Assembly (NCBI GenBank): GCA_007674295.1
Contig: CM017463.1
Location: 1 to 64,000 of the forward strand
DNA from: Antonospora locustae
Lineage: Eukaryota; Microsporidia
DNA: 64,000 nt
Direction: 5' to 3'
The notes beneath the pieces were generated by a model. The model was not told where the DNA came from, did no database searches, and saw only the letters and a program-made list of their open reading frames with translations. The number at the start of each line of letters is the position of its first letter. The stretch's first letter is position 1. Below, piece after piece: positions 1-54,689 of the stretch. Made by a program: the position numbers and the translations under genes.

Positions 1-125
1 CCTAGCAGTTGTGCTGTGGTGCTCAGATGCAGCACATGCTCAAAAGGTTTTATCGTTGTAAGCAATGCACAGTTTTCCATTTTGGCCACAGAAAAGAAAA
101 CTTCTTATGATGCACCCCAATTTTA

Positions 126-11315: not shown

Positions 11316-11328
11316 AGGGTTAGGGTTA
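11316..11328 (+). repeat. interstitial telomere-type tract (left)
   Basis: AGGGTTAGGGTTA, two units of TTAGGG reading rightwards on the plus strand, exactly where gene-bearing sequence gives way to the AT-rich block. This orientation is that of a right-hand chromosome end. It is far above chance in sequence with about 20% G+C. Confidence 0.7.
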
Positions 11329-11774
11329 ACTGAAGCTCGTTATTATGTTTCCTTCTACACTGATGATTTTTTGTGCCTATTGGAATATGCACAATTTATA
11401 TTATGTAATTCTGCGAATATCTAGTATGTTGATAGGGTTAAAGTGAATAGAGATTAGAATTATCAAGAAATAGTTATAAGATGCATTCGCTGACATTTAA
11501 GGACACTGATCCTGTTCATCAAGCTCTCTTTCTACATTTTCTTATTTTGGAACCTTATTCAAGAAAATGGCATTGGAATGAAAGCAATGGGATAGCTAAA
11601 TGCAACCTTTCTGCATATATTTGTGGTTTTAAAACTTTTATAATTTCCCTTTGTGAATAAAAACATGACAGACTGTATTTTTATTTCTTTATGAATGAGA
11701 AAATGAATGACAAGTCAGACATACCTTTCACTTAAACTCATTTTCTGTGGTTGTTCTGACAATCAGCCCTTTTT

Positions 11775-11864
11775 GTTCTTTTTAGGTAAAAACTTTATTC
11801 TCATTTCCACTTGTAAAACTTTCATAAAGCGTCTCATAGTTGTGTTCCACCATGTGCTTGTTGA
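11775..11864 (+). repeat. 90-bp direct repeat, left copy
   Basis: Identical over 90 bases to 36941-37030 in the same orientation, 25,166 bp apart. Flanks differ immediately on both sides. It contains no open frame of note. Confidence 0.95.
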
Positions 11865-14800
11865 GCTTTAATAACTATTTATGCATTATTTATTTTAATT
11901 TTGTTGTGTGTGATTTTTGTTTTATATAAAGTAAGTCTATGTTTTATATTATAGGTACGAGACGAATAAGAAATCTTTATAAAACTACTAAATTAACATC
12001 ATAATGAAAAAACTGCTAAAACTGCGTGTTAAACATGAAAATATAGTTGATTTTATTATCATCATTTTATGCATTTTTATAAAGCTCTAACAAATAAACT
12101 ATTATATTAGATTTTGATATCAATTTTAACAAGAAATTTTACATAGTTGATTTGAATTTTAGATAACTAGATGGAACTAAATGCAAATATTATAGAATCT
12201 CACATTTATAATATTGAAATAATTAAATTTTTAAATAGTTTTTTAGGGTTGCAATTTTAGATATTATAGACAGCATAAATCCCGACTTTTTTAAGAAATA
12301 TTTTGTTTTTTGAATCTCACTTTCTTTGAATTCTTCTTTATTAGTTCAAAAATTATTCCCACATAAAATAAATAAAAGAAAGTAAAGGAATGTTTCTGTT
12401 TTTTTATTCTACAATATTTATCTTATATAAATTTTTTTAAAAATTACTTATTAATGTATTGGATATTGTGGACAATACACCTGGTATAAATGTACACTTT
12501 ATATAAATGTTTAGCATCTTCTACATGGATGGACCATTTCATTATTTAAGGTCTTTTATATAATCTTCTGGAAACCCTTTAATGTTACCAGGAGCTCACA
12601 TTAGCTATAAAAATGTGCTGGTCCGCATCTTCCATTGCATATATTATTCTTCATATTTATAGAATTATTTAAATGTATTCTAAATTTTAATTATTTTTTA
12701 ATTATTAGCCTAGATAAGACTACGAGAATCAAATGTACAATATAAGTAGGGCATGATCAGGATATACTTTGATCAGAATTTACTAAGATAGAAACTTTAT
12801 TATTAAGTCGTTATATTAGAAAGTTAGATGAAAAATACGATTTTCTAACAAAAAATATTTAATGATATTTTAAAAATTATAGATAATAGCAAAAAACATC
12901 GTAAACTCAAAAAAACTTTGTTTGTAATAAATTAACTATGTAACTTAAGTAAAAGAAAAAAAATATTTTGCATTAAAAATAAAATATGCTTATTAATTAT
13001 ATTTAAAACATTGTCAAAATTGGTGTTATTTTATTGTAAATGAATATATTTCTCTTTATTTATACGATAGTATATAACCATATAATTATGAAAAATAGAT
13101 TAATTTAAAGTATATAGTGTAAACTGTATAAACTAGTAATGCATATTAATTGATTATTTATATTTAATTATATTTTACTTTATTGCATATAATAGTTACG
13201 AGCCTAGGAAGAAATCCCCAGTTGAATATTTTATAATAAGTATTTGAATGTAACAAGAATTTACTTTTTAAATAAAACAGGTTCACAAATAAAAAATTCA
13301 TTAACACCTAAATATGAATTCAAGATCTCGTTGTGCAATGTTGTTTTAATATATGTACAGTTGAATTTTAAGAACATTTAAATTTAAATAGCTGTGTTAT
13401 TCATGTTGTCAATTAAACTGATGATTTAACAACACATTATTTATTAAATCTCTAGCTATATACATCGCATCAAATGTTCTTATTAAATTGTTCAAGTAGT
13501 CCAGAATTAATTTGAATTGCAATTATTTGTTATAAATCAATTTAAATTTTGATATATTGTATTTTTCTATAGCTTAATTATATTTATAATTTAATACTTG
13601 ATTTTAATAATATAATTTTAATTTTTTGTTAATTTAAATTTTAATATTTTTAATTCCAATGATAATTTCGCTATTAAAATCTTGTTTTTAAAAACACCAT
13701 TAACGTTTATGTTTAACTATAGTTTTGCTTGTGTTTCGTTATTTATTATAAAAATTATTGATGTTTATGCTTATTAATCAATATATTTTTTTGAACTTCT
13801 ATTAAAGTTTTGTTTTAAAAATTGCACCAAATGTTCATGATAAACATTAAATACTTTTTGTTACATTGTTTTTAAATTTATTTTGTATTATTCTTATTAA
13901 CTTTAAATTTAAACCTATTAACATAATCATTTCAAACTAGATTGAATTTTTATTTAATTTCATAATACTTTACTTTAATAAAAATCTTTATTGTTATAGA
14001 ACAAAATATTCATAAAATAGCTAATTTATTTCATATTTTAAGTTACATAAAATCTATTTTATAAAATAATTTAAAACTACATTTATAAAAGTTTTTTTAT
14101 GTTTATAATATAAAGTTATTTTTAAATTAAATATAATTTACGTTTGCATCTTTTATTCAAACATCTTTAGTAGTTTATTTTAAAATAAACATACTTATAG
14201 GTTTTCTTATAAAAATATATTTTCATATAAACTTTAAATGTGTTTAAATATAGAGAGAGTTTTTATCTGTTAACTGAAATTAATACATATGTATTTTTTA
14301 CTTTATTTTGATATTTTTAATCTTTTAAATATATACTCTTGACAAATTATTTTTTAAATTAGTTTTTTTGTCTAAAGAACAATGATTCCATAAACGTATT
14401 TTTTAATTTAATATTATTCAGCATAAATGTTATCAGAATACTTACTACTTTGGTTGGATGAATTTCTTTCTTGTAACAACTTTATTAATAAAACCCAAAA
14501 CAAGAAGCAGAAAATAAAACGTACTAACCAATTGGTTTGACATCAGTGCTCCAATTAGTTTGAAGAGAAAAGCATTATAAAATAAGTTTTCTAATTAACT
14601 CTAAATAAAGATTCAAAATACATGATATAATAATCATAAATTTTGTTATAATATGAAGTAGCCTATAATTTTAACTTAAATTGACTATTTTATAGGCAGA
14701 AATGTTGAACTTTAAATATCAAAAAGAAAGTGTAATGATGACAAATTATTAGATATTGTATTTACTAATATTAATATAATGAAATGATTATTTGTGGAAT

Positions 14801-16253
14801 ATCTAAACCTTATACTTATAGTCAAAATAGAAAATAATAAATGCATACCAGCTAGAAATATTTCATTTTATACAGTTTTCAAATTTACTTCTTTGATCTA
14901 TAAGCAAAAAGTGTTTGTTAGTTAAAAATAATTCGAAATTTAGAAATATAATGTATTTTATACAATACTTTAGAGCACTATTTTATATTTAATATACTAT
15001 AGTAGAAAAAAGTGGTAAGGAGTTGGTATTCAATTGATATACAGATTTGACAGGTGAATGATCAAATAAATAGAATAACTGTAAAAACAATATTTTTGAA
15101 ATTGTTAAATGACAAATTTATAGATATTTTTCTCTAGTACTCATATAAAGATAACTTACAAATTAATATGATCAGCATATGATGGGTTTCATCCTGGCTG
15201 TATGTTTTTTTCTAAGCTTTTTATTAGAGATTTGGTTATTGTTACTTAAGAGATCATAATTATTTTGAGAATTTTATTATTCAAACTATTTATTTAAAAC
15301 ATCACTTTTAGTATCTAAATTAGAAAACTTTTCTAAAGTGTCCTGGTTAGTTAAGGTACATAGTGTGCTCGTTATACTTTGGTTCGTGGAGGATCTTATG
15401 CAGGGGTCATTCTTTCAAGAATCACTGCGTGTCGGAAGATTATCACAGACAGGAAGATTGCTATTTCCACCAAAGTGCTCAACGAATCAGTTGCATTTTA
15501 CTCCCTCTAAGAAGCATATTTCCACTTTATAGAATTTCTTACAAAAAGTTTCAACTAATTGTAGCCTACTTTTTGCTTTACAGTTACATTTAGTTGTGTT
15601 TAAGTTACTCATAAGAAATTTAAAAATGAATTAATTAACTTAAACATAATTATAAATTATGTAATTTACTAATTACATAAATTCTTAGTGATAACAGGTA
15701 CAGAGTTAATATAAAAAATAGATACAGTGTAGATTTATGAAATAACATGACTAAGGTTGTATTAAAACGTAAGCTCTAAACATTTTTATTGTACAAAATT
15801 ATAAACAATGTAATTTAAAATAATAGAACACAAGAAATAATATTGATAAAGATTAACATAACATATAAAACAAAGAATATGGAACTGTTGGAATAAAGTA
15901 AATGAAATATAGATAAATAAATGAGATATGTAGCATTTTAATATAAATTAAATACATGTGTTGACTGAAAGTGCTTTATTAGAATGTAAGGAAGAGAGAA
16001 ATATATAACATTAATCTCTGCAATAAACATAAGTAATAGTAAGTTATAAGTCAACATAAAATATTTGTCGAATAAAAATGAAATTTTTTTTTGATTCTCA
16101 TAATTTTAAACAAATAAAAGAAATGTGTTATTTGAATTATATCAAAAAAGAATGTTATGTTTTGAATGTTAGGAAACTAAAATATATGTGAAAGTGAATT
16201 ATATGTTACAACTAGATACTATTTTATTTACAAAGGTAGTTTTCTATATAATT

Positions 16254-16280
16254 AAATGGTTATTGTTAAACAGTCATCTA
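16254..16280 (+). repeat. dispersed degenerate repeat, copy A
   Basis: 27 bases matching 24095-24121 with two mismatches inside the AT-rich block. It shows that the block contains old dispersed repeats. Confidence 0.5.
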
Positions 16281-19200
16281 GTGACCACTCCCATCACCAG
16301 ACTCAATTAAGCGCTGTAATTTAGCATAATATTTTTAAATAAAGGTTATTTTAAAAAAATTTTATTAATAAAACTGTTGTCAAAAGATCACTATTTATAT
16401 ATTCATTAATAAATAAAGTGATTGTTGTATGTTTTGTAGTTATGACAATTTATATTAATTACAAATTTATATATATTATTTTTTTTTGCAACTGTTATCC
16501 TATGCATAGTTTTGGCTAGTTAGAGGCTATTGTATAAATTGTAACTTTAATATAGAGCAGTTATACGTTGTAGTTTAACTCAGATAATTATTTTTCTAGA
16601 TGTGTGTTTATACTAAAGAGCATTTTCTCTTCAAAATTGTTACTAGAAGATGATCTAGATGATCTTTGAGGATGTTCTGTATCTATTTTTGTAATGTACA
16701 TTATTTATTTTTTTTATTATGTAAAAGATCACTGTCTTGATCTTGTAGGGTTTATTAAGTCACAACACTACAAATATTTATTTCATTAAGATATAGTTAT
16801 GTATAATTTCTTATTATTTCTGTCAAATAAGTACTAAAATTAAACATAGGATTTGTATATAATATTTATAATTATGTGATCATAGCAACATCTTTTTAGT
16901 TGATTTATTAATAACATATAATATGCTTTTATTTTTAACTACTTATAGAATTCTTTTACACTTCTATATTTTAGTAAAAAAATAGAATATTTACTATTAT
17001 TGTTTTTCTATTAGTTAATTACTTAGTATTCTAATTTATTTTTATTTTTACAATTATATTTAAACATAAATGTTGAATCATGACTTGATTATATAGACTT
17101 TTATGTTATTATAACTCAAATTAACCTTATTTTTTTAGTTTATCTAACATGATTTGCAAAAAATTTACAATTTTCAAATTAAATATCAGATCTTACCTTA
17201 AACTTTAAATACAAAGTGAGATTGTACTATACATTATAATAAAAAAATAAGTCAATGTTATTTATTTCTCATAAGTTTCACTTTAAATGAAGAAGATTCC
17301 CTTAGAAAATAAATTAACAATATTAATAAATTTTTTAAATATAATTATATATAGTTGAATTTAAAATTTGATAACAAGAAAACGAACTGTGCAAACATGT
17401 GGTTTAGTTAATATAAAAATAAATTAGTATCATATGTATATTAGTTAGAAATTGTTGTAATAATGGCTTATTTAAAAGTATATATGTCTCTAATAAATAC
17501 TATGCTTATTACCAAAATTTATTTGAAAATATATGCATAAGAAATATTATTCTGTAAAGTATTTAAAAAAATTAAAGCTTAAACGTTATGTTATTAACAT
17601 TTACATTATGTAACAAAAACAGTCAATCATTTTTATAAGTAAATGGTTAATAATGCATACAATTTTGGCTATCTCAATTTACTTTATTTTTTGAGCTTTG
17701 TCACCAATTTATTTAACAAATATTGTATAATATGATGTATTTGATGCTAAATAATACGATCTATAAATAAATTCTGAGTAAATTAGAATATGAAATGATT
17801 CTTCCATTCATCTTATTCAATTATAATTGTTTACAAAACAATAATTATTTTACAAAGTTATGCAAGTTTATTAAAGATTGTTTTAATACATATTAAATTA
17901 ACTAAAATTAAAATTTTAGGAACATTGTATATAAAAATCTGAACTAGTTTTTTAGATATTTTCTTTATTAAAATTTCCATATTGAGGGGAGTCTTCCTAA
18001 AGAGTACCTGCTGGTTGCAACACATAATCTGCCCACTGGGCTTTAGTTCGCGGCTTTTTATGTGAAAGTTTTATTAAATTTTTCAGATATATTGAAAAAG
18101 TTTGTTTTCAATTATTTAAAATCGAAAATTATCTTATTTTTACCTGTAAGATATTTTTTTAGGTTAGGCATTTTTACAGTAAGGAACTTCTGTGCTTGCA
18201 GCTAAAAACATATTAGCCCTCATTAGCACATATACATGCTGGATCATCTTCTTAATTAACCTACTATGTCAATGTCTTCTATTCTACGAAATACTCAAAT
18301 AAGATGGTCTTGTGTATCCTCTTCAGGACTAGTGTCTACATGTACGCCTCAGCATTAATGAAAATGTAAAAGTATAATGTATATTTAAAAAGTATTCTTT
18401 TATATTTTAAAATTTTTAAGGATAAACTTAAATTCTTGTGATGTATAAATATAATAAATACCACAAATATACATTTTAAGTATTCAACAATAATAATTTG
18501 TTTTTAAATTAATAATCTTTCATTCATTAAACAGGTACAAACAAACAAGATAGGTATAATCTCATAGATGATGAACTAAGAAGGCATTGTGATAAAACAT
18601 TATAAAAAGTATAGAAAACTCTTGTAATCACAAAATATATGATTATATTGTTAATACTATCACAGTTTCTCTAAATAATATATGATAGGGCCATAGCATG
18701 CCTACGATAAGAGTTATAGTATATAAACAAACTATTATTAACACAATAAAGTGTATGCAACATAAATATAGACCAAATAAATGGCACAATGTGTTCCATT
18801 AGTACATAAAGAAGGGGACAATGATGAAATTCTATACTTTATATTAATAAATTACCCTTACATTTCATTTGTAATACTTTTAGATCATAACCATAATTAG
18901 TCTTAAAGCAAAGTTATTTTATAATACTTACATGTATTTGTAAGATTCCGCAACATAAAGAATACAAGAAGGAGACTCTGGAATTACAAGGAACCTGAAG
19001 GTATACATCCAGACTTTCCATTAAGCATAATAGTTGCAAACCAAGTAAAGGCTATTGCGAGGATGAGTTAAATACAAGCGAGGTAATATTTGTTGAATAT
19101 GTTGCTGGAAACAATCACCAGGAGATTGTTTAATAATAACTACGGGTGTAACGAAATTAGCATTTCTAAATAAATCTTGTCATGTATTTATTTTTTATGT

Positions 19201-22189
19201 ATTTATTTTGACTAATTTTCTAATAAATTAATATATATTGACGCTTAATACTAAAAAATATTTTAATATAGTTATATACAAATATATTAGTATAAAACAT
19301 AATAGAAAATATATTACTTATACTTAAATATAGAATATTATCATATACTCCTAGAAAGGAGAAACGTAAGATAATTATTGATTTGCTGAGCATTTTTCTA
19401 ATAACACTAACGTTTATGTTTATGAGTATTACAAGCAATCAGGATTATTTTAGGATTGTCTTCTTGTAAAGTTCTCTGCAAACTAAATATAAAACAATAG
19501 GATATGACTTGCATGAATATTGTATGCAATCACATATATTAATAAGAATTCATTAATTTATTTAAAAATGTTTGCTATAAACCATGTAATTGTATAAGTG
19601 TTATAAAATAATAAATGTAATATCAATAAATTTCTTCTGTATTTTGACGTGTATTTTTATTTGATTATTAAATATCTTCATTTATTTGACTATATACAAA
19701 CAATATTATTAAATTTTTTGGTTTTGTTGGATACTAACAGCATTTATTCTAGTATATAAAATTTAGTTGTGTATCTAATATATTTTAATTTATACAAAAT
19801 TATAATTTTGTGTTGAAAATTATAACAATATATAGTAATAAATTTAGAAGCAAACAAAAACATAATAAGTTTTAAAAAAAAAATATTTATTATCACATTT
19901 ATAACATATACAAAAATAATTTGATAAAAAGCATAAATACTTATGATTTAAGTATAATCCATTAGATATAAGCATAAGGTGATTTAATTCGGTTGTCTAA
20001 ATATAAGTTGTTATTTATTAAATGAGTTATGACTAATATAACTACATTAAATAAAAAAACAGAGATAAAAATTATATCATACAAAATACTTAAAACATAT
20101 CGACTAAAAGTATGTTATAGTAACTATATTATTAATAAAAGGATTTTACGTGAACTTAATCTACAAATAAATTAATTAACAAAGAATTAGGTGTTTTAAA
20201 ATTAAAATTAAATAATGTTGTATTTAGACGTTATAAACTAAAATTATATGATTAAAAAATTGCTCGAAATTTTTGATACCAATTTTTATTCATAAAATTT
20301 GTCTATAGATCATTATAGTAAAATTAGGAACTTTGATTTTACTCTATTTTTTACTTTCTTAATAAAATTTAAGAGAAAAAAGTATTTAACAATAAAAATT
20401 ATTTTAAGAAAATAACTTTTTTTATACCAATTTGCTTTTTTATATTTGTATGTACTAGAACATAATATCTTTTTATCATATAAGTGATGTTATGTTTACA
20501 TAGAAAGAGCATTCCATAGATTCAAATAATTTATTATGAAACAGCCTGTTGGAGACAGTTTTTAACACAAAACTCAATAGACATTGCTACCATTGTGTTC
20601 AGCTCCTTCTCACAACAGCATAATATCATCAAATTATCTCTTGTCTTGCAACGATGTTAATAATGTTATGTATTATTATATTGGTTTCTTAAAATTTAAT
20701 AAAAATTACAGATAAACATGTTGTATTAAATGTATTGTTATACATTAGATATAAACGCAATGCAACCTAAAGAGAATATTTAATATTATATCAGGTACTA
20801 CACTGCTTCGATAACACTACCAAAGCAGATGTAATGTAGAAGGTGTCCAGCGTATATCTGTAGTTTATAAAGGTATATTTCTATATATGAGAGTAGATAT
20901 TCTACAAGAAGAGAATGATTGGATTAAATGAATGAACTATTAATAATAAAAAATATAAAACACCTTACTTTTTATTAATTTATTTAACCGGAATAGATTA
21001 CAAATAAGTTATGAAGTTCATATATTTGTTAATTCTGTATTAATGTATTAAAATTAGTATTAAAAAGATATTTCAGTTATATGAAAAAGTAATAAAGCCA
21101 TAAAATCAATTAAATGGAAATGTAGTATATATAATAAGCATAAAAATTATTTAGTACATAAAAACATAATGTTCGATCTCATTTTTATATTGCAAATATT
21201 CATAATATAATATTGTATGTACTCTATTATAAATTTAGTAATTGTTATGTAATCAATAAATTTATAAATAGTTTTATAGTAGAACATAAATGATAATAAT
21301 ACATGTTTTAGTTTATAAAAGCATTCTGTTTGAAACTTAAATTTTATGTTATAAATATACTTTTTGATTTATAAATCATTTTTGTAAGATAAATCTAAGC
21401 TAGTATGAGAAGAACTATAATTTACCAAACACTATTTTAAACGTTATTTAATGAGTGTTTTGATGAAAATGTTAAAGCTAAAGCTCGAATAGAAAATTTT
21501 AGATTAAACTTCCAGTTTATCTATGGCTTATTTTATTAATATTTTATTACTTTAAAAAAGAATAACAAATAAAGGACTTTAAGGTATGTCTTTACTATAG
21601 AACTTTTTTAACATATTTTACAATTCTATGTTAATATGGTGACATTTCATTTTGGTTTACGATGAATTTAATTTGTAGTCTAACGAAGCATCTATACTCG
21701 CCTTAAAATAACTATATTCATAAAGAGATTTTTGCCATTAGTGTAACTGCAAAATAGGTTTGTTGTTGCGCCATATTCATATTTAGAAATATATTTTGCT
21801 TAACTTATTATTTATGTTAAATTATAATTATATAAGTTTCAAAATCATCACTCCTATAAGACTTTATGAAAGATGGCTACAAAATTATGTTTATGAGCGG
21901 TCTAGCTAATTATGAACCAAAGCATCTTTATAAACTTATTTTACAATAAATATAGTATTAAAGAACCCTAATTTGGAAATTTCAATAAATGTTACCTTAA
22001 AAATTAAGATGCTCCTAATTAATAAATTTTTAAGTTAGAAATTGCTTATATTTAATTACTAGATATAATCTATGGTAAATTATGAATGGTATTTAATAAG
22101 TTATAAACAATTATTTTATACAAATAATATGTTCGACAAATATTATTTATTATGTAAATTGTTATAACAATTTTTGTAAATTAATCATC

Positions 22190-22480
22190 GAATCCCCAAT
22201 TATTCATGAAAGATGACAAGAAGCTCTTTGTATAAAAAAGATAAGATGCTATAAAAACAGAGCCAGCTAGCAGAAAGAAACAACCTTAGCAGGGACAGAA
22301 GGATCAGATCCAGACTCTGATAGGCTTTCGCCCGAGACTTAACATATATTCATCGCTGTGACTGAAAGCATATAGTCTAGCGACACTGCATATTGGTGCA
22401 AGTAGGCTGATATGGGGAAAAGCTGTGTATGAAGATGGGGAGTGTTCTAATCTTAGAGAGAACTCTAGCAGGTTATTTTA
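22190..22480. other. higher-G+C island within the AT block
   Basis: About 290 bases with clearly more G+C than the surroundings (for example the stretch around 22260-22380). No open frame, tRNA or rRNA signature is recognised. Probably the remnant of a gene or other older sequence. Confidence 0.4.
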
Positions 22481-24094
22481 CATTGGGTGTACGTTATGCC
22501 ATTTTTAAATAAAAGAACAATAGCTTCTTCTATGCTATTTTATACCACATTCTAATCAAATTTAATATTTTACAACATTTAAATTTTTGATGAGAAAACA
22601 CGCTATTAATGTATTATACAATAACATGTTTATAATTTGGTGTTATTTTGAAATTTAAATCCAAAAATTATTTTAACAGTCAACTATCACACTACGTTGA
22701 GAAACAAAATATGAAAGATGGATGTTATTGGAGTAAGTCATCATGGAACGTTTTAACCATATCTATTTAGAAATCTTTATTTTAATAAAACCATTTAAAT
22801 AAAAATATTGCATTATTTACTTTATTTAAAAATGTACAAGATATGAGTTACATATATACAACAACTATTTAACTATCACAAAGTCTGTTTATGCTTAAAA
22901 ATAGTTGTAATTTAAATTTTAGGCTTTAAAAGTAAATATAGTTTTATTTTAACTTTACTTTTGTGCATTTAACAAGTTAATAAACTTTTGACTATAAGTT
23001 GCGATGTGCCCATAAAAGCTAGAAAGCGACAAAGATCACTTCATTAAAATGATGATGGTTGCAAAATATTACTCTAAAGATAACAAAAATATCTAGCAGA
23101 ATTACAAACTAAATACTTCTGAGAAACAAAAAATAGAACACAAGTTAAGGCAGACAGGAAATCTTGTTAAAAACTTTATAAGGTGAAGGTTTGTCAATAA
23201 AATTGTTACTGAAAACAAAATCTTAAAGGACCAAGTATTTATTACATAAACAAAAATTTATAAATAAGAATTTAATATAAAATAATAAAAATTATAAACA
23301 GCAAGTAAAAATATATTTTGACTAAAATGTAACAATAATTTCTAAGAAAATAATTATAAAACGGTATATAAATGAAAAACGTAATAAACAATATAATTTT
23401 ATAATAATTTATCTATTATAATATGTTTATAAAATATTTGAGAAAAATATACGAGCAATTTTTATATTAATAATTAATAAAAAATTTACTAGAATTTGAT
23501 ATAACATGTTCTTTCTTAAAAAACACATCTAATACATAGATTTGTTTAAAGATTTATTTATTCAAATAATGCTTATATTTAAATATTATAGCATATTATT
23601 AAATGAAAGATACATATATTTTGTATTAATGCTCTAAACAGTGATTAAAAAACTAAATAAAGTTAATATAAATAAATATGAAACTTTTGTCATACTTATT
23701 AGTTAATATGACATAGAATTTTACATACATTCTACTTAATTTTTCCTAATAATTTTACTAATATAACATAGTATATTTTTATTTTTCATTTTTTGGAAAG
23801 TTCCTTTTTTTAAAGTTTCTTTCATTTTTCGTATTTTGCATAATATTAATTCAAAGTCAAGATATTACTGATGTAATACTTACAATGTAGTTCAACATAA
23901 AGTATACACAAGAATTAATAAAGAATATCCCTGTCTTAATAATGTTATTTTCGGAATATTATGATTAAAGAGAAGCTTATGCACTTTGTTTTTTGTAATG
24001 AATGGTTTAATGAATAAATTGCTAATAACATTAGAGAAACAAATTGTTATAATAAAATATTACTGAATTAAAAAGAAAGAATTTTACATCTGCC

Positions 24095-24121
24095 AAATGG
24101 TTATTGTGAAACAGCCATCTA
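24095..24121 (+). repeat. dispersed degenerate repeat, copy B
   Basis: Second copy of the 27-base element at 16254-16280, 25 of 27 bases identical. Confidence 0.5.
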
Positions 24122-27100: not shown

Positions 27101-30100
27101 TATTCTTCTTTATTTATAATAAATATAAAAAATAGAATATTCTTTCATTTTAATTAAAATAGTAAAAGTGAAAAATAAACATTAATAATTGTAGTGACTT
27201 TATTTTAGAATAAAAATATTAATTATATTTAATAACAGCATATTATAATATTATTTTAAATAAAAACTTTATAAAAAAAAGCTATTATATATTATATTTT
27301 TATGGTAGTATATACAGACAATGAACAATTTAATTTAACAAGAAATAACACTATGTTTTTACAACGGTCAAGAGACAAAATTGAATAATACATAGAGATA
27401 ATTATTATTACATAAGAAATAAAATATTTTGTAAAACGAATAGATTGATATGTTTAATAAGTTAGGAACAAGCAGTATGAAATGAAAAATTTCTCTAAAT
27501 ACATTCTGTATATTTTTGAGTAAATAAATTATATAACTTAAATCCACTTTAAACAAAAAATTTTTATAGAAATGGTTATTTTAACATATTATAAAATTAA
27601 ATATATAATAAAATCACAAAATTAAAATTATGTGCTATAAAATAATGTTTAAGACAATAACTTTTAATTTTACATATAAATTAAAAACAGATCAATAATA
27701 ATTATAATGATATATTTATATACAAATTTAGTTAAATTTACCCTTAGGAGGAACGGAATGCAGTTGATTGAATCAATGTATTGGTGACAATAGCCATCCT
27801 CTTCTATGTGAATACTCTCTAATGAGAAATATTCGCCAAAAAATAGCAACTGTATAATAATCTTTGTTAACAGAATCTAACAGAAACAAAGTGTGCAATA
27901 ATTATGAGATGTTTTAGGGAAACATCCTAATATAGGAACGCTAATAAAGTTACTATTGCCTAAAAAACGAATTAAATTTATAAATTAACTTTAATTTATC
28001 AAAGATTTATCTATTAATTAAATAAATTATGGTAAACGTTATCAAGAATTAATAATTATTTATTGTTTAAATATAATAATTTAATTTAAAAGAAATTGGT
28101 TTTTTTAATGTATTACTGTAAAAATAACAAAATGCACTTACAAGTTTATTAAGGTAAATATTTTTTTGTATTTGTATTATTATAATTAACATACCTCAAA
28201 CTTATTTTATAAAGATTTTACCGAAATAAATATGTTTATATCATTTCATATATCAAATAATTTTTTATATTGAAATATGCATAAGATGCATTATAAAAAT
28301 ACTGCAAATAAGCTTTGGCCAACTAAGATTAAATAATTAATAAAAAACAATTTATTGTATTTAAATATTCCTGTTATTAATTTTGTTTAACAAGCATTTC
28401 ACTCCTTTAATTATAAGTTTTGCTGTTAAGTATTTAGAAATGATATATCTTTAATTTAAAAGTATTATTTCCTAGTTAATTTAATTATATCTATATATAA
28501 CTGTAGTTTAAATGTTAAGAGATTGCGAGTACGTGTAGTATAATAGAAAAGTTGTTAATAATATCTACCTACTCTGATACAGCAGGTTTGATTCGTGAAC
28601 TGCACACAAGATCGAAATTGTATTATAACTATTGCATTTATATTAAGTCTTAAATGCAAACCATAATGGACTTGATGTTTAGCCAGAATAAGCCTAATAT
28701 TGTGATCCATGATAAAAACAAGAATGAAATATTAGCGTGAAAATGACATAACCTCTTTGAATAAGTTGGAAGATGTTGAAATTCTGAATGTTTGCAAATA
28801 CTGGTCTTATATGCTGCAAAGTTGAAAAGAATCCATATGTACAGACATGTTTGATACCCTATATAATGACTTGGGATGATTTCGTGGCTTTGTACCGTAA
28901 GAAGTACTATAAGATTTCTAGGAAATGGTAGGACCACATACAAGTTTTGATAAGCATTTCTATAAACTAGTAGATTCTGATGCTGGAAATGGTCTCTAAA
29001 AGGCTTTTTCACATCAGAATAACTATTTTAAATATGTGGTAAATGCACTTTCTAAATAAATAATTATAATCCTAATTTATACAGTTATTCATTAAATTTT
29101 AATATTTTCTATAAATAAATTATATATACTAATTTTTCTATTTTTTACACACAAAACATATAACTATACCATAAGATATATTAAAAAAATACATTAGTAT
29201 ACATTTATTCACATATTTGTGCTTAATGGACTCTAAGTAATGTTACAGTATGTATAATATTCATACTTCAAGATAATAATTGTAAAATCGCGATACTGGA
29301 AGTAAGAATAATTTCTTTAGAAATGATATAAAGTAAAAATGTAAAAGAAATTAAGAATCAAATTATAGAATATTTATAATACAATTTCATCATTTAATTT
29401 TTTCTGTAATTAAATAATATAAATGGTTCCTAGTATAATTGAAATTATGAGAAATGCACATCTTATCTTTTTGCGAAAATGTTTTCATCAAAAAAAATTC
29501 ACAAATAAGGAACTATGTGTAAAAACATTTTGTCTAGTTCTAGTCTACTACGTTCTTTGCACATTGGTTATCGGATAAATTTAATTTATTATATTTATGT
29601 GAATCAATATATTTATCTTAGTACTATGAATACAGAAAAGTAGATTACTTCCCGCATGTGATTGATTTATTGAAGCAATCTCCTCACTCTTAATAGTACC
29701 CTTACTCTTTTTATACACAAATTTAGATTTATTTGAGTTAGATGCTATTGTAATCATCCTCTGTTGAATATATGTGAATATTCTGCATATAAAATCGACT
29801 TACAACCAGATGTTTATATAGAATGTAATTAAGAAAGAGTTTCCAAGTTTGATTGATTACAGAATACCATCTGCAGAAGTAATGACTAATAATGATGAAT
29901 TGTAATCTAAAGAGTAATATTATTATTTAGTTCTTAAAATAAATCTATGTATATATTTTTTAAGAAATTGTTTGTTTAATTTTGTTTTATGTAAAACTTA
30001 GTTTTTATTTATCTGTATATTTTTAAAATAATTATAGTAATGTAAATTCAAAACTTTTTAATAATTTAGCAATTAAAGATGAAAAAAGTCTGTGCACTAT

Positions 30101-30739
30101 ACAATATTAAATAGATTTACCAGAAAGATAAAACATAAAAAGATCTCATCAAATAAAACGTTTTGGTGATTTAACATATTTTACGCATATATTACTATTT
30201 TAAATAAGATACTTTACCTTTTTATTTCAAATTTAAATACTTTTATTATTCATGTAATTATAAATTACCTATAATTTAATTTTTAATAATCAGTATTTTA
30301 TTTAGTCCCTTTATATCTAAAATTTACATATAATCTTCAATTTTTTATATTTAAAGTGTTGTGATATTTCATAACAAACCAAATAAGAGTTTCCAGTATT
30401 TTACTACTTTTTAAATTTTAATGAAATCTAAACAACTTTTTTAATAATAGTATGTTGCTCTTAATGATTAAATTTCATATAAATATATAAAACAGTGTGT
30501 GTTCATTCCTTAATACAAAAGTATTAAACCAAAGCGGATTATGTGTAAGGAACTACAATTATATTATTCGTATTATCATTACTAGTAATGTTGTTTTGGT
30601 TTAATTAGATCTATAATATACCATATAGAATTGTACATTTATTAGTTAAACTTTATATTATTCTTAAGTAAATTATATCAACTTTGTTTATTAAATAAAG
30701 TATTCTGACTATAATTTACAAAATATTATATAAATCAAG

Positions 30740-31700
30740 GAATATTGGCTATGTAGCAAGAGTTGATAAGAGGCTGTCGAGTAGAATACACAATGGTCTT
30801 AGTGGCCTCTAAGGAAAGTCTTGTGGCATACCCTAGCACCGTCAACACGTAGTATGCTAAGTGGAGAATGCATGCAAACCACATAAAGTATAAAGTCCTG
30901 TGGGTTATGTGTGTAAAAAGTAATTAGAATACCTTTGCAGGAATCCCAGTTGTGTTGTAGTACACGTACCTGTGCATGGTAGTCGACGAGAATTTGTGCT
31001 TATTTATAATAATGAGAAGGTGCATATATGCTGCAGATGCAAGTGGTGCTAATGATTGCGAAAATGTTTTGCAAAAAGAGATAAACTATTAGAAATCAAC
31101 ATTTTAGTAAAGCTTTTGAACACAATGATCTATAAGGACTAAAAACGGTATTGAACTGCGCGAACAATTATTGCAGAAAGACATAAATGCAGTATGCATT
31201 TAAGCCTTGGCTCCTCCATGCCACGAAAGAGAAGGGCAGATGAGCTACGTCGGTTTGGCAATGGGTGCGACGCCTCATAAGCAATCCAGTGGCCCAAGAG
31301 ACAGTCTGTAACAAGATTCTAGTTGTGAGTATGCAGGTGTGCAAAGTATGTTTCTAGGGCATTGCTTGCAGCACATTACAGTGAGCTTGAACCGAGTGAC
31401 ACAGAATGGTGGGAATTCAACGGAGACGTTTCCGCTTGCACGCATTTTCCAGTCATATATGCTGGTACATCGAGGTGGAGAATGCAGAGCTCTTCTGCTG
31501 CTTGCAGACAGGCATAGAGGGATAGAGCGCAACAATGGTTTCTTCGGAAACACAAACAATAAACCGCACAAGGACAGGGTGAGACACTGCATAAAGATCG
31601 CCGCTGCAGGCGACAACAATTACAACGTACAGTATCTTCAAGTTGTCATTCGCAGACAGACAAGAATGTTACGAGGGACAACAAACTAAATACCACCGCT
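30740..31700. other. largest higher-G+C island in the AT block
   Basis: Nearly 1 kb of more balanced composition. Overlapping frames of 114-116 codons exist on both strands at 31275-31689, but neither has a motif, signal peptide or C-tract start. Read as a decayed relic of coding or spacer DNA that predates AT drift. Confidence 0.4.
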
Positions 31701-34700
31701 AATGCGAGTACGAAGAACACGTGAAACGATTTGTACAAATTCTATAAAGTATGTTTTTGTAAATAAAATTGTTATCTGAAAAATAAAATGCTTGTTTTTA
31801 ATGTTTTATTAAGAAAAATTTGGATAAAATAAGGATGTTCTGACTAAATAAAATGAAACAAAGAATATATAAAAGTCTTTCAGTTTCAGAGTAATAGCTT
31901 TATTTAAATTTATAGACTATTAAACTCTTCTAAAGCATTTCCTGGTTGCAGCTCACTGCATGATTCTTGCACTTTGATTCACTTAAAAATATAAGTTATA
32001 TTAACTATTTTGTTAACGCCTATTAAATTAAAATATATCAGATAAATAGGCGAATATCATAACTTATTAAACGAAATAATTTGTTTTTTAAATTAGTATA
32101 AATTTCGCCATATTTTTAAATATAATTCATAATAGGCATTTTGTAAATTAAATATTAGCATTAAAAATTAATCTTTGGTAAATTTTTAAAAATATAATTA
32201 TTGATCTAATCTACATTATACTTAATTAAAAACAATCTCTTATTAATCAATATTCAATTTTAGTATAACTCAGTAAGTCTTTAACTATAAGTCTGATAAT
32301 ATATTATAAAAAAGTAAACACAAAATAGATTATAACAATGTTATATTTTCTTATTACTAATAATAACATAAATTAAAAATAAAAATTAAATTATAATAAT
32401 TAAACATATTTTCATATTTATGTTATCTCGTAATTTATAAAACCTAGAAAGAAAAAAAAAGACATAGCAAATTAAAGTTAAAAAATACTATATATATTAC
32501 AGAGAAATCCTTATATTTTCTAGAAATATTTTATAAAGAAATGTTACCATAAAACTCAATCAAAAAATTAAGCTAAGCTAAAAATGGAAAAACAATCTAG
32601 AATTAAAAAATAACATAAACAAAAGGTAATTATTCTTAAAAACATAGTAAATTATTATAATACGAATTAAATGATGTTTTGTTAGATTAGGTTATTAATA
32701 AAAAATATTATGTAAACTAGCTAAATATTAAAATAATGGCTAATGTTAAATTATATTATAAGAATATGTTTGTTTTATCTATAATAAAACTAAAAAAGTT
32801 GTTATATGGTGACATTATTTGTAATTGTTCTACATAATAAAATTTTTTATAATTAATAAAATAATTATTTTATATTGTGTTAAAGTAAAGACATATATAC
32901 ACTTATATTTTTACTTTACAAATATAACTAAAAAAACTTGAATTGTTTTGTTTTTATTTAATAATTGTTGAAAAGCTAACTAGTGTACCTTGCTAATTAC
33001 AAAATAAGTTTATATTTCTTAAATTTATGTATAAAATTGATTAGTTTTATGTTAGAAATATAAATGATACATTTACAATATATGTTAAATAAAATACTAC
33101 TTTAATATAAACAGAAGTTAACTATTTAATGATTTTTATATTAACTATTATGTATATTTATTAGCACAAATATAAATTCTAATAATAAATATTTATCATT
33201 AAAATACAGTTTTTATGTTTATGCATATTCTTCCATTTATAACAAATACGCAAAATGTAACTGCATAACGTATGCCCACAAAAATATTACAATAAACTTA
33301 TCAAATTTGGTATTTATTGTAGATAAACGTAAAATATTGAATACTTTAAAAATAAAGATAACAGTGTAATACTTCTTAAATAAGCAAAATTATACATATG
33401 TTATTGCATTATATTTAAATCATAATGTCAGAAAGAATAAATAAATATAATTATAATCTTTTTCATAAGATTAGTTCGAAACAAAGCGAATATCACACAA
33501 CAGACAACAATCTTTCAAAACTTTTTGTTCTGAATTCTCTAGTTTGAAAGTTTGTTGTTTCTAAAAAAATAATTATAATAAGAAATTAAATACATAAAAA
33601 ATTAGATGATTGTGCAACATTCATAAGATTTTCATTTAAAAAAACATTATCTATAGGTTTCACTGCAGAATATGCATTATTTACTTAAATTATTGAGGAT
33701 AATTTGACAACCACTTCAAAGAGTGTTGTTACCGTTGATAATATATACATTGGTAAATGTTACAATCAATGTTATAGCTGGTTAGGTGCATTTATCTCCC
33801 TCATAAGTAGATAAATAAATATGTTGATGACAATGCTATTATTATTAATAATAATTTAAGTCAATGAAAGTATATAATAGTTAAATATCAAAAATATTAC
33901 ATTTGAGTTATATGCAAATTAAAATCGTAAATAATTTTTATTAAATAAATATAAATCTTTTAATATAAGAGCCTTTATTCGCATTTACATTTTAGGATAG
34001 GCTCCTAAAACAATTCACGATTACAGTTCACTATATATAATGTGCTAATTACATTTTGGTTTGTAATTTTGTCATAAAACTATTTTCTAAAAAGTATAAA
34101 ATAAACTACAAATATATAACAGTGCTGTTAGCAGGTTTGTTAATCCTAGAAGTTATTTATAAACAAAATTCATAAAATTATTTTCACAAAAAATATTGTA
34201 TATAATAAAAATTATTAGAAAATGTTTTTATAGAGAATATGGATTAATTAAATACTTAGAGAGTATTAAATACTCCTTGAAAACACATCACATATGGCAT
34301 AAAATTATAATTTTGAATGAATTTGTAGCATATTTAAGTTTAAAATTCAATTCAAACTGTTGTAATATTAAAAGTACAAATACAAGAATTATTAAAGATC
34401 ATATTTTCGTATTAATACGAGAAACATTTGTATAAAATGTTTGTTATATTGATCTATTCTATTTTATTGATAAAAGATCTTTATCTTTTATAAATAATTT
34501 GCTTTATAAATTAAGTTTTATTAATCAACACAAATAATAATAATTAAGTTTTATTATACATAAAAGCTCTTGTTGAAAATAATTATCAATAATTTGTTTG
34601 CTATAATTTATACTTAATTTAGTATTTTTCATCATAAATTTATAATACTTTCAATTATTTAAAAACTAAGATTATATGTGATGGGGTTAATAGCTTAATA

Positions 34701-36428
34701 AACAATGTTTAGTAACAACTTTATTATTTTGTTTTAATTTTTACGTGTTATTATATAAACCAGATTGAAATAATTTTTATTCAATAGTACATAACACCAC
34801 TATTATATTTTACGATATAATCTTAATTCAAAATAGTAAGTAATGTTTTTAATAAAAACTGTTCTACTTTTTAGTTTGTAATTAATTTTATTTTTTAAAA
34901 ATTAACATATTAAATAAGTAACGATTATTTCCATAGATGTAAGTAATATGTTTTACAGTTTAATTTTTATTTTTCACATAACTAATGAGTTTTCCATTTA
35001 GTTTATATAAAACTTCCAGTTAAGTCTAATTATTGTCATTGTTCCATGTATAAAATAGTTTTTTTGTACTCAGTACACAGAAGATATAATATATATCATG
35101 CTTTCTTTGTTATATAATATATATTACCTCAAGCCCTATATACTATATTTTTTTTATTGAAATCAAAGTTATAAAAAAATAAATGCATACTTAAAAGTTA
35201 AATAAATCAAAGTTACATGGTTATGTGAAAAAATAATTTATAAAATATAAACTTAATTTTTATTAAAATGTTATCACATCTTCATATGTTTATAAAAACT
35301 GAAATCTTTTCGTAATTTTTTTATAAAATTTACTCAAAATAAATAAGATAAGATATATCAATAATGTCTTTATAACAACTTTTTATTGTTTAATCTAAAA
35401 ACATATCGAAATTAATTTAAATTATAAATAGAATAATAAATTATGAAGAATATATTTAATTAGACAAAATAATATAATTTTTATTTATAAATAGTTTTCA
35501 TTGTATTACTAAAATCGGTAAAAAGTCTTATTATTTGGAAATAAGTAAGTTTTTCAATTTAAAAAATAAAGTAGCTTATAAATTTTATATAAAATTTCTT
35601 TTTTATAGGAAGATGTAATAAAATCTTAGTATACAAAAATACAAAAAATTCACAAACTGTTGTGCACATACAAGATAGGCCATTACCTCAGTAATCTTTT
35701 AAAATATTCCCAACTACTTAATTTCAATAAATGTGTTAGGTGAAAAAATAAACGAAACGAAATGAACTGTGAAGCATAATTTTATAATAATAAACTTTAT
35801 ATTTCAATAAACTAGTTATAATAATATGCTGTTATTAATAAATCAAACTTAGTAGAGTATTTTTCTAACGATATAAAGTTTTAATTTTATCTGATGTGAA
35901 ATTTAGTCTATACTTTAATATCAAAATATTTTATGTCACTGTTTGTCTTGACAGTTGAAATTTATAAAGTGACTGTTTTTATTACTATTAACAATTCATA
36001 AAAAGAAAAAGAAAATTGATGTAAATATTAAAATGTCAATCCCGAATTGACATGCAAAATGCATGATTAACTCACAGACTGGAACTATTTAAATTAAAAC
36101 TTAATTATTCATAGACTAATTATTGCGGAGAGAAGCTGAACAAGATGGTGTAGAGGTTTTTTGAATGCGAATTTAGAAATAGCTTTTCGTGGGGTTGGTT
36201 TTTCTGAATAAATCTCATAACACAATATTTCTTTTTAATGAAAAAATAATGATATTTTAAAAAATTCCTTCCTAGTTAGGGTTTATTTTTTAATGTTTTC
36301 ATCCATCCACTTTGACCTGTGTATTTGATTCAAAGACATTTTAAATTTTATAACGTAAATTAATAAATTTTTATGTCAACTTAATAAATCACAATTGTAT
36401 GTAATAAAATTTTTCGTATAAAAGCTAA

Positions 36429-36452
36429 ACAAATAGTAACAATATGTATAAT
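36429..36452 (+). repeat. 24-bp perfect inverted repeat, arm 1
   Basis: Exact reverse complement of 36497-36520, with a 44-base spacer. It could extrude as a cruciform. It lies about 335 bp left of the right telomere-type tract. Confidence 0.9.
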
Positions 36453-36496
36453 CTAATAAATAATGAAATAAAATAAAGTGACTTGATAATTTATAT

Positions 36497-36520
36497 ATTA
36501 TACATATTGTTACTATTTGT
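36497..36520 (+). repeat. 24-bp perfect inverted repeat, arm 2
   Basis: Second arm of the inverted repeat at 36429-36452. Confidence 0.9.
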
Positions 36521-36853
36521 TCTGTATGTGAATAATAAAATGAAATGTGTAAATAGTTTGTTTTTATTTAAAACAGATTAACTTTCATGTTATTTTTTAT
36601 GACATGGTTATAGATATTATTCATGAATACAATAAGATTATACTTAACACAATAATGATTTCCTAAAGATTTCCTTGGTAAAGAGTGTTATAAAATATGT
36701 CATGATCAACACATATATGATATATATGTTGTATACAAGGGAATGAGTACAGAAGAAATATTTACTCAAATATGCCACTATAAAAATGATACTAGCAACA
36801 AAAAGATATATAAAAAAAGTAATAAATAAGTACAATATATATGCAAATTTTAA

Positions 36854-36866
36854 AACCCTAACCCTA
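36854..36866 (-). repeat. interstitial telomere-type tract (right)
   Basis: AACCCTAACCCTA on the plus strand, i.e. two TTAGGG-type units on the minus strand, pointing into the AT block. This is the orientation of a left-hand chromosome end and mirrors the tract at 11316. Confidence 0.7.
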
Positions 36867-36940
36867 TTTTGTTATATAATTAAAAAAGAACAGTAATGTT
36901 AATAATAAAATGTATTTTCATAAAAGTATATCTGTATGTA

Positions 36941-37030
36941 GTTCTTTTTAGGTAAAAACTTTATTCTCATTTCCACTTGTAAAACTTTCATAAAGCGTCT
37001 CATAGTTGTGTTCCACCATGTGCTTGTTGA
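36941..37030 (+). repeat. 90-bp direct repeat, right copy
   Basis: Identical to 11775-11864. It begins 75 bp right of the right telomere-type tract. Confidence 0.95.
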
Positions 37031-38689
37031 ACTCATTCTTAATTTGATTTCCGTAATTAAAATATTACTAAAGAATTATTTATATTTTATCAGTTTTTAT
37101 TCCTTAATAGAAAAAATAAAAATATTCATGATTTTCTTCATGCGTTGTATTTTTAACCTACGTATGTCTCTAATACCAGGATGAATATAAAAAGAACAGT
37201 ACTAACCCCTATTTATGTTCATTATATGAAAATTATATATAAGATTATTTTTAAAGAAACGTTTACTATTTTATTTATGAAAGAAACAAAAATGTTTTAG
37301 AAAATAGTTTGTGAATTCTAAAACAGCATAAGACTTTCTTCTATTTCTTAAAGTGATAAAAGATTTTATTTTTAGAAGTAAAAATAAAATAAATGCAGTT
37401 ATACATTATTATAAACAACATCGAGCGTTGAATTGTATTCGCTGATAAAAGCTTTTACACTTACTAAAGTAAAATACCCTTATCATTGTTTAATATGTAT
37501 ATAATAAAACTCATACCATATGAGATTTTACTACGATCGCCATTTTCTTGTCTAAAAATTTTCTTTTATTTCAAAAATAAGGAGAGGGATGCTACTTTTT
37601 ATCTTTAAATTATTATTTATTTTTTTACCCATTTATGAAATGGGAACTAACCCCCATAAGCAGGTTTTATTATGAACCATTATTATTACAGTATGAATGA
37701 ATTATTTTTATTCCTCTCAATTCTATATGTTGTTTTAAAGCGACGAGGAATAAAAATATTCATTTTAAAATAAAAGATACTTTATGATTTTATGCATCAA
37801 ACTTTATTTTAACTGATGATGTTTGTTAAGAAGGAAACATTCATAACCCTCACAACTCTCAGACAGTATTATCAATGATTTAATTGATTATTCAATTGCT
37901 TTCATATTTTGTCACATGATTATTTAATCTTTTACGTACGGATACTCTCAAAGTGACATGATAAAATAATAAAATAAGTTACAGGACAAGATTATTATGA
38001 ACTGAATATTTAAAATACGGGCTCACTATGAATATCAGGGTTATAAAATGGAGAAGGTCATAATCAAAAGTAGCTTGTGTGAGACGTTAGTGGTGCTACT
38101 TGTTTAAGTTTTGAGGGTTTGCTAAATAAATTCTTATATATAAAGCATACCACCCTATTTAATGGACTAATATAACATTCCATAGAAGAGAAACACGTTT
38201 ACGTATTAAAGATATCATATTTCAAGGAGATGGCAGTGGGCTATCTCTTAGTAAGACTTCTTCTGATCATCCATCCTCTTCACCCTAATTCTGATCATCG
38301 GTATTTTCTTCTTATTCATCAAACAATGAAAAATACGTTAATGAAGTTCAGCTTTCTTACAGTGCGTTCATCTAACAAGTGCAATGTAGCTGCAGCAGTC
38401 TGCGTTTTATTCATCATTTGGCAATATTCATGGAACATTCAATCCATCTCACATCTTCACTGTCCAATAAGGAATCTTGGAGTAACACCATTTGGTTTCT
38501 TCTCCTAACGAATTTGATGTATCATCTCAGAAAATAGTGTCTCCATCAAATAAAAAGTTTCTCTACTGTGGAATCCACAGATTGTCTTTTTTAGCACGCA
38601 TTTTCTTTCAAAGTATTTTGATAAACGGTGAAACCCATTTTCAGTCTACAAAATTAATTCAATATATCGATGTCGCACAAACTCTTCAG
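37031..38689. other. right edge of AT block and transition
   Basis: AT-rich to about 38.2 kb, then more balanced. Frames at 38230-38508 and 38492-38773 have no motif and are not supported as genes. Confidence 0.45.
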
Positions 38690-53962: not shown

Positions 53963-54376
53963 TTATCTTTCGCACTCATAGAGAACGCACTTCTTTCGCT
54001 GTCTGTTTTTTTTGGAATGACCTTCTGGTATGCTATCATTCAGAATTGTGATCACATTCAAGCTGTGAAACATCCAGAGATGCCCGTTATTTTTCGACTT
54101 CAGACAAACTACACAAGGCTGGATGATGTGGTATCCAACAATCTTTCCGCACTGCAGACATCCCACGTCTCTTACTGCACAGCGGCAGCTCCTTGCCATA
54201 TACGGGTCGTATACGGGGCTTATTGCTGTTGATATTATATTTGTGGAGATCAGGTGCACTCTTGGATCCGAGAGAAGAGACGACTCAAGGCCGTATCTTG
54301 TCAGCAGAGAGCTGCATTCGCCACAGTAAACGGAGTATTTTTGTTCCTTGGTGCACACATCCCGTTCCACGATCAT
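53963..54376 (-). CDS. FAM72-family protein
   Basis: A 137-residue protein with the full FAM72 layout: VYCGECSSLLTRYGLESSLLSD at the N terminus, then RSCRCAVRDVGCLQCGKIVGYHII, then PCVVCL followed by NNGHLWMFHS. The Cys-pair spacing and the GNxVGYH and NNGHxWMFH motifs are those of the family, which includes the human UNG2-binding FAM72A. The Cys pairs probably bind zinc. The family is not one I associate with microsporidia. It is convergent with Spo11 with 144 bases between stops. The 5' part lies inside a segment duplicated in the assembly, so a second partial copy of the first exon-like region appears at about 54453-54613 and should not be counted as another gene. Confidence 0.85.
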   Translation of the reverse strand: MIVERDVCTKEQKYSVYCGECSSLLTRYGLESSLLSDPRVHLISTNIISTAISPVYDPYMARSCRCAVRDVGCLQCGKIVGYHIIQPCVVCLKSKNNGHLWMFHSLNVITILNDSIPEGHSKKNRQRKKCVLYECER

Positions 54377-54451
54377 GATGTGTTTTGTTATTGTTTTCCA
54401 ATCGTTTTTAAATTGTTCGCAATGTTTGTGACGAACTGTGTTTTATTTGTT
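54216..54451 (+). repeat. assembly duplication, copy 1
   Basis: Identical to 54453-54689 within one base of the junction, offset 237 bp, with a single N at 54452 between. This pattern is typical of two contigs with overlapping ends placed side by side. Confidence 0.9.
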
Positions 54452-54452
54452 N
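54452..54452. other. assembly gap (single N)
   Basis: One undetermined base exactly at the junction of the two duplicated segments. Confidence 0.98.
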
Positions 54453-54689
54453 GGGCTTATTGCTGTTGATATTATATTTGTGGAGATCAGGTGCACTCTT
54501 GGATCCGAGAGAAGAGACGACTCAAGGCCGTATCTTGTCAGCAGAGAGCTGCATTCGCCACAGTAAACGGAGTATTTTTGTTCCTTGGTGCACACATCCC
54601 GTTCCACGATCATGATGTGTTTTGTTATTGTTTTCCAATCGTTTTTAAATTGTTCGCAATGTTTGTGACGAACTGTGTTTTATTTGTTT
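54453..54689 (+). repeat. assembly duplication, copy 2
   Basis: Second copy of the 237-bp segment; the start of FAM72 is duplicated here. Confidence 0.9.

Follow-up and report, generated by a model that had tools for sequence, protein, structure and literature searches.

What is the long AT-rich, gene-free block in contig CM017463.1 of the microsporidian Antonospora locustae? The contig, here called C17, is 88,799 bases long and is one of 17 (labelled C1-C17) in a genome of 3,170,203 bases. The window, which is the whole stretch analysed, comprises its bases 1-64000. A sequence-only reading of the window had noticed a block of about 27 kb and preferred to see in it a regional centromere, with a decayed fused subtelomere as the alternative. 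According to the available text of two papers, microsporidian centromeres have not yet been located with certainty (PMC12449221, PMC13174016). The block on C17 is probably a chromatin-defined regional centromere with proposed TTAGGG-type boundary sites and putative CENP-A occupancy.

The block is distinct in composition. Its AT-rich part (window 11.9-37.9 kb) has a mean G+C of 0.216. Measured per kilobase, G+C is 0.43-0.53 in the left flank (1-9 kb), falls over a shoulder at 9-12 kb (0.39, 0.37, 0.32) and stays at 0.16-0.27 across 12-38 kb, with the single exception of an island at 31-32 kb (0.38). At the right edge it climbs to 0.38 and then 0.49 (38-40 kb), and the window right of 38 kb has values of 0.38-0.58 with one dip (0.36 at 45-46 kb). 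This profile, which had been proposed as a check, shows a low-G+C zone at 12-38 kb. Since the spacers between hand-listed genes in the flanks have a G+C of 0.438 and 0.442, the block differs from ordinary non-coding DNA.

The block also lacks recognizable genes. Between 11.9 and 37.95 kb there are two open reading frames (ORFs) of at least 60 amino acids (aa), none of them within 11.9-30.65 kb; dinucleotide shuffling, repeated 40 times, gives 2.8 on average (range 0-6). The same comparison in the right flank gives 79 ORFs against 40 in shuffled sequence. The longest ORFs of the block, 113 and 105 aa, both lie inside the G+C island and match no Pfam family at E 0.001. No Rfam family reaches the gathering score in the block, and ARAGORN finds no tRNA there. 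Hidden genes or RNAs are rejected on these empty scans. The low G+C and shuffle-like ORF counts confirm the AT-rich, gene-free block of the sequence-only reading. That reading placed the start at 11316, which is the position of the left telomere-like motif; the AT-rich DNA proper begins at about 11.9 kb and ends at about 38.0 kb.

Two other origins of such DNA were rejected. Repeat-induced point mutation (RIP) is not indicated as the source of the AT bias by the ratios TpA/ApT (1.01) and (CA+TG)/(AC+GT) (1.08) of the C17 block, and its signature is absent from block pieces of C17, C10 and C15. A tandem satellite is not seen either: the C17 block has one weak 2-copy array and nothing more.

C17 was analysed completely, and the other 16 contigs were sampled in 18 stretches of 10 kb, 140 short stretches and the loci found in searches. 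A point was called AT-rich at a G+C of at most ~0.29, and each zone was assumed to be continuous between its points. By this measure, 16 of the 17 contigs have an internal AT-rich zone (Table 1), the exception being C9. The four best-bounded blocks measure ~26 kb (C17), 23-27 kb (C10), 20-25 kb (C15) and 23-33 kb (C3), on contigs of 89-261 kb. Compositional distinctness and gene-freeness both hold for the C17 block, and the other blocks were assessed on composition alone. Stretches of G+C ~0.5-0.65 often lie within ~10-20 kb of AT blocks, for instance at window 1-7 and 47-52 kb, C2:35 kb, C3:54 and 90-102 kb, and C4:135 kb.

Several such blocks per chromosome had been named as grounds for giving up the centromere. 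No contig was found to have two among the 12 block-bearing contigs probed (C17 complete, the others with gaps of at most ~31 kb, the largest on C1; second zones could hide in these gaps); sampling outside the block was sparser on C2, C10, C13 and C15.

The blocks do not appear to be copies of one another. All blocks but that of C16, 15 of 16, were compared in pieces (most of 0.5-1 kb) and have only short AT-rich matches in common. The best match between different blocks is 52 nt long (49 bits), C17 alone having been compared whole. One repeat family common to the blocks is thereby rejected for the pieces compared. A conserved core of the Saccharomyces type is not evident in the block pieces (C17 whole), which have no common sequence, and the border 9-mers described below are missing on C2 and C8. 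The C1 block contains a short tandem repeat at 155001-155500, with 92% identity over an alignment of ~91 bp that includes a perfect stretch of 47 bp.

A gene-free block on C17, one block seen per contig on 16 of 17 contigs and the lack of common sequence among the pieces compared together correspond to the usual description of a regional centromere. A domain that occurs once per chromosome need not be a centromere, and the block is a compositional feature with G+C-rich DNA often nearby. It may therefore represent an ultra-low-G+C domain of another kind, such as silenced heterochromatin or a regulatory region. Chen et al. (2020) reportedly proposed that ultra-low-G+C regions are linked to host defence regulation in Antonospora locustae. 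This explanation is unlikely given the same three observations that fit a regional centromere, and because the sampling turned up no other candidate region for a centromere.

Many of the block borders carry TTAGGG-type motifs. With one mismatch allowed, the string at 11316, AGGGTTAGGGTTA, has six matches in the window and loci L001, L008, L009 and L012-L031, all of them at borders of the C17, C10 and C13 blocks. Genome-wide, AGGGTTAGGGTT with at most one mismatch has 27 matches (10 for a reversed control), 19 with one mismatch and eight exact; the zone test, applied to the exact ones, places all eight inside block zones. The 9-mer GGGTTAGGG has 23 sites (control 6), 20 of which are inside block zones, and the 9-mer TAGGGTTAG has 25 (control 3), 23 of which are inside. 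Merged, they give 37 sites, 32 in zones (binomial p 6e-19), where the zones make up 18.5% of the genome and were drawn by hand from probes after the motif positions had been seen. The G-strand faces the block at 26 of these 32 sites (p 3e-4), and both p values are to be read with the caveat that sites sharing a border, such as the six on the left border of C10, are not independent. At least one of the two 9-mers is present at 18 of the 32 borders, on 14 of the 16 block contigs. Several borders have 3-7 units spread over ~0.2-3 kb, and both orientations occur on C10 and C11.

Word counts in seven hand-chosen border pieces (26.4 kb; words seen at least six times) single out the same motif. The top words among 6-, 7- and 8-mers are AGGGTT, GGGTTAG and GGGTTAGG, and the six leading 7-mers and six leading 8-mers without exception come from (TTAGGG)n and overlap one another. 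The word TAGGGTTA occurs 11 times in the border pieces, never in 33 kb of core and never in 192 kb elsewhere, in a comparison from which L020 (C9) was omitted, as were the outer parts of L013, L024 and L026. In k-mer enrichment over whole blocks, telomere-like words ranked modestly; they came out on top once borders were separated from core.

The position of the motifs relative to the change in composition was probed at 20 places, ~2 kb to either side. Of the probes on the block side, eight of nine have a G+C of at most 0.27 and the remaining one has 0.37. On the outer side, G+C is at least 0.38 in eight of 11, and three (C4, C13 and the right side of C3) are still AT-rich. Because of these deviating probes, the motifs are better placed at the periphery of the blocks than precisely where the composition changes. 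As would be expected of STAR-like elements, TTAGGG-type sites stand at domain borders, and these borders are compositional, defined by G+C. In the core of the C17 block, TTAGGTTAGG is found at window 18159-18168; it reads as the shorter Encephalitozoon telomere repeat twice over.

The polarity of the motifs is by itself compatible with binding sites for a protein and with telomere fusion. If the contigs were each made of two joined chromosome ends, the AT-rich DNA would be old subtelomere and the motifs relics of telomeres, and the polarity at 26 of 32 sites would match two telomeres face to face. Fragments of the island at 31 kb are also similar to DNA near two contig ends. In the accessible part of PMC10158259, Encephalitozoon subtelomeres are described as gene-poor, AT-rich and possible locations of centromeres.

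The two explanations can be separated by the DNA next to the motifs, because eroded arrays should leave an excess of in-phase matches. The border pieces contain 19 distinct exact runs (20 rows, with one run counted twice), of which 11 are 10-13 nt and eight are 7-8 nt long. The adjoining 24 nt match the repeat in phase at 6.25 and 5.9 positions on average, compared with 6.01 at random, with single values from 1 to 11. By this average, no remnant telomeric array with degenerate units is seen beside the 19 runs. The lack of an excess favours protein-binding sites over telomere fusion. The spacing of the units at several borders and their mixed orientation on C10 and C11 also speak against fusion, and about 16 fusions would be required. 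Finally, the three contig ends examined out of 34 (both ends of C17 and the start of C16) have a G+C of 0.47-0.58 and are not AT-rich; none of them has telomere repeats. The discrete short motifs and the composition of these ends weaken the earlier alternative of a decayed fused subtelomere, to which we give little probability.

The contig C9 (171,047 bp) does not follow the pattern. Its G+C is 0.23-0.36 in all 10 places sampled (10-38 and 61-140 kb), and a G+C-rich stretch runs from ~38.5 kb to at least 52 kb. Two of its genes have only weak, paralogue-like matches elsewhere in the genome: the RPC19-like gene has one (33% over 55 residues) and the CPSF-like gene has two (23% and 22%). For this reason C9 seems to be part of the genome, and contamination is disfavoured as its origin by the two genes tested. 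A histone-fold protein resembling NF-Y has a 50% identical relative on C2, which counts against C9 belonging to the genome. Taken together, the gene comparisons suggest that C9 is probably not a contaminant.

The odd composition of C9, and an assembly that must be imperfect if three contig ends examined lack telomere repeats, could also mean that AT-rich contaminant reads were joined into the chromosomes. Such an artefact is very improbable. The left border of the C17 block is a graded shoulder of ~5 kb, one kind of motif occurs at block borders on 14 contigs, and each block piece has unrelated sequence, unlike a single contaminant.

A regional centromere implies kinetochore proteins, for which candidates were found. 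The genome has three H3-type histones. Two on C1 have canonical tails, one beside H4 and another at C1:323 kb. The AT block of C1 has a divergent pair of canonical H3 and H4 genes at its right border (C1:167-168 kb). The tail of the third, at C14:98 kb (L003:1387-1854), is divergent, its loop 1 carries an insertion of five residues, and two residues are missing before VLKEI; we take these features to be hallmarks of CENP-A. This protein belongs to the histone family by Pfam and PDB and has 16 relatives, including a Gurleya vavrai protein at 51%. Judged by these features, the genome encodes a CENP-A-like protein, with the C14:98 kb gene as its candidate; a CENP-A gene had been made a precondition for ChIP. 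A match to the C-terminal domain of CENP-C at C4:203 kb scores 33.5 bits against a cut-off of 29, which none of 14 prokaryote control genomes exceeds.

These genes bear on a further explanation, in which the organism is holocentric, or its centromeres lie in other places, and the blocks, as gene deserts, have another origin. A 2025 survey, in its available text, mentions holocentricity or an epigenetic definition of centromeres, and reports for other microsporidia no centromeric regions recognizable from G+C or repeats (PMC12449221). In insects, according to an excerpt of PMC4359364, holocentricity is accompanied by loss of CenH3. With a CENP-A-like gene and a CENP-C-like domain present, this explanation is hard to credit for A. 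locustae.

A candidate for a protein that binds the border motifs was found on C9. The genome has 14 Myb matches, and the one at C9:7935-8075 (30.2 bits) coincides with the sole genome match of the telobox pattern, VDLKDKF (2 mismatches allowed, both used). From 100 bases of this locus comes KHGEGKWQLILSSSDVFHPCRSSVDLKDKFRL; of the three PDB entries that it matches with an E of at most 1, two are human TRF1. In yeast, Tbf1 binds low-copy subtelomeric TTAGGG arrays and has anti-silencing and insulator activity, as the available text of PMC6410037 describes.

Several observations weigh against a centromere with motif-marked borders. C9 has no discrete AT block. Six of the 32 zone sites are oriented oppositely, 14 of the 32 borders have neither 9-mer, including all four of C2 and C8 (the left border of C2 has one 8-nt unit), and the probes that deviate, three of 11 outside and one of nine on the block side, do not fit motifs at the exact change in composition. 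The match of the telobox fragment to TRF1 is weak (E 0.93), and its third match is an unrelated protein. In PDB, the C14:98 kb protein matches ordinary H3 chains best, and CENP-A chimaeras rank below them. By the Encephalitozoon argument, the C1:323 kb H3, which lies apart from H4, is another CENP-A candidate. Below the cut-off (E up to 1), the CENP-C profile also matches eight of the 14 prokaryote controls.

On balance, the earlier centromere reading is supported, not proven, by an internal block on 16 of 17 contigs and a CENP-A-like gene. In the mechanism proposed here, the centromere would be set by chromatin and not by common sequence. CENP-A nucleosomes would occupy unique, AT-rich, gene-free DNA of a few tens of kilobases, with one to several TTAGGG-type sites at many borders. 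These sites would be recognized by a TRF/Tbf1-type Myb protein with a telobox. Once bound, it may act as a boundary, like Tbf1 at the subtelomeric STAR elements of yeast, and could stop centromeric chromatin from spreading into genes. We infer the CENP-A occupancy, the binding of the Myb protein and the boundary function. It is possible, though rather doubtful, that microsporidian centromere borders are specified by (TTAGGG)2 elements of preferred polarity, bound by a TRF/Tbf1-like protein that also serves telomeres. If so, one protein would mark both the chromosome ends and the limits of centromeres.

Table 1. Positions of the features described. C17 positions are those of the window; zones on other contigs are bounded by sampled AT-rich points.
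Feature	Contig	Position	Strand	Remark
Proposed regional centromere core	C17	11900..37950	.	AT-rich, G+C 0.216, gene-free; composition, ORF counts
Left telomere-like motif AGGGTTAGGGTTA	C17	11316..11328	+	G-strand towards block
Second left unit TAGGGTTA	C17	11433..11440	+	Orientation as AGGGTTAGGGTTA
Right telomere-like motif TAGGGTTAGGGTT	C17	36854..36866	-	G-strand towards block
Single AGGGTTA unit, right border	C17	37844..37850	-
TAACCC hexamers, right border	C17	37203 and 37648
Single AGGGTTA unit, right border	C17	38037..38043	+	Opposite orientation
G+C-richer island within block	C17	30701..31750	.	ORFs without Pfam match
93-nt direct repeat, left copy	C17	11775..11867	+	99% identical to right copy
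93-nt direct repeat, right copy	C17	36941..37033	+	99% identical to left copy
Hairpin, two perfect 25-bp inverted arms, 44-nt loop	C17	36428..36521	.	0.33 kb inside right motif
Last left ORF of at least 100 aa before block (207 aa)	C17	10172..10795	+	No Pfam family
First right ORF of at least 100 aa after block (354 aa)	C17	38690..39754	-	No Pfam family
YchF-type GTPase gene, right flank	C17	39840..40922	+	PF06071, PF01926
AT-rich zone	C1	155-167 kb		Sampled points
AT-rich zone	C2	43-55 kb		Sampled points
AT-rich zone	C3	61-84 kb		Sampled points; one probe at 79.5 kb = 0.37
AT-rich zone	C4	143-155 kb		Sampled points
AT-rich zone	C5	86-95 kb		Sampled points
AT-rich zone	C6	95-102 kb		Sampled points
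AT-rich zone	C7	115-130 kb		Sampled points
AT-rich zone	C8	75 kb		Sampled point
AT-rich zone	C10	37-60 kb		Sampled points
AT-rich zone	C11	65-80 kb		Sampled points
AT-rich zone	C12	60-80 kb		Sampled points
AT-rich zone	C13	43-63 kb		Sampled points
AT-rich zone	C14	60-84 kb		Sampled points
AT-rich zone	C15	22-42 kb		Sampled points
AT-rich zone	C16	53-67 kb		Sampled points
GGGTTAGGG/TAGGGTTAG sites outside zones	C2, C3, C5, C9	C2:242, C3:93, C5:50, C5:156, C9:58.6 kb

Of the 93-nt direct repeat in Table 1, the left copy is found 0.45 kb to the block side of the left motif, and the right copy 75 nt beyond the right motif on its outer side. The repeat is rejected as a genome-wide border element: a genome search scored its two C17 copies only. 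The hairpin is one of two above threshold in the seven border pieces scanned; the other, on C10, is different (24 bp, one mismatch) and lies 0.2 kb inside the left motifs. Fragments of the island resemble DNA at C17:67.9 kb and near-end DNA at C1:4.2 kb and C11:142.5 kb. Further right in the window are a 237-bp unit in two tandem copies (54216-54692, 99% identical) and a U2 spliceosomal RNA gene (62264-62453, minus strand; Rfam RF00004, 71.8 bits).

The result makes the location of microsporidian centromeres a directly testable question: there are 16 candidate intervals, a border motif, and candidates for CENP-A, for CENP-C and for the protein that would bind the motif. If the motif works as proposed, telomere-binding proteins would be tied to centromere borders. 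The AT-rich blocks themselves were reportedly already known for A. locustae. Chen et al. (2020) are said to have described regions of ~25 kb and ~20% G+C on 16 of 17 chromosomes of this species, and the blocks are almost certainly the same regions. Those regions were reportedly linked to the regulation of host defence; the present analysis interprets them as centromeres and adds the border motifs and the candidate kinetochore genes. Literature searches found no report of interstitial telomeric sequences in microsporidia, none combining 'ultra-low GC' with locustae, and nothing on A. locustae and centromeres beyond PMC13174016. Within the literature searched, neither the border motif and its polarity nor the candidates for CENP-A and the telobox protein in this genome have been published.

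The regional centromeres of the Candida, Malassezia, Plasmodium and Neurospora types are AT-rich and independent of sequence. A. locustae is like them in having an AT-rich, gene-free and mostly unique region per chromosome, and in having a CENP-A-like gene together with a CENP-C-like domain. It differs in that the C17, C10 and C15 pieces show no RIP signature and the C17 block no repeat array. Its borders also carry TTAGGG-type motifs, whereas a limited look at the literature pointed to none for these four types.

The closest comparison among microsporidia is Microsporidia sp. MB. In the available text of PMC13174016, candidate regional centromeres, needing confirmation, are given for every chromosome, and 'similar regions in A. 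locustae' are mentioned in passing as having reduced G+C. Unlike the A. locustae blocks, the regions of Microsporidia sp. MB are rich in retroelements and methylated, and they have a higher G+C; that text mentions no telomere-like motif at their borders.

The border sites themselves are most like the STAR elements of yeast. Both are low-copy TTAGGG sites, as far as the available text of PMC6410037 goes, and recognition by a telobox Myb protein is only predicted in A. locustae. STAR elements are subtelomeric, whereas the A. locustae sites mark the edges of AT blocks in the chromosome interior, where they may play a comparable, putative role as boundaries.

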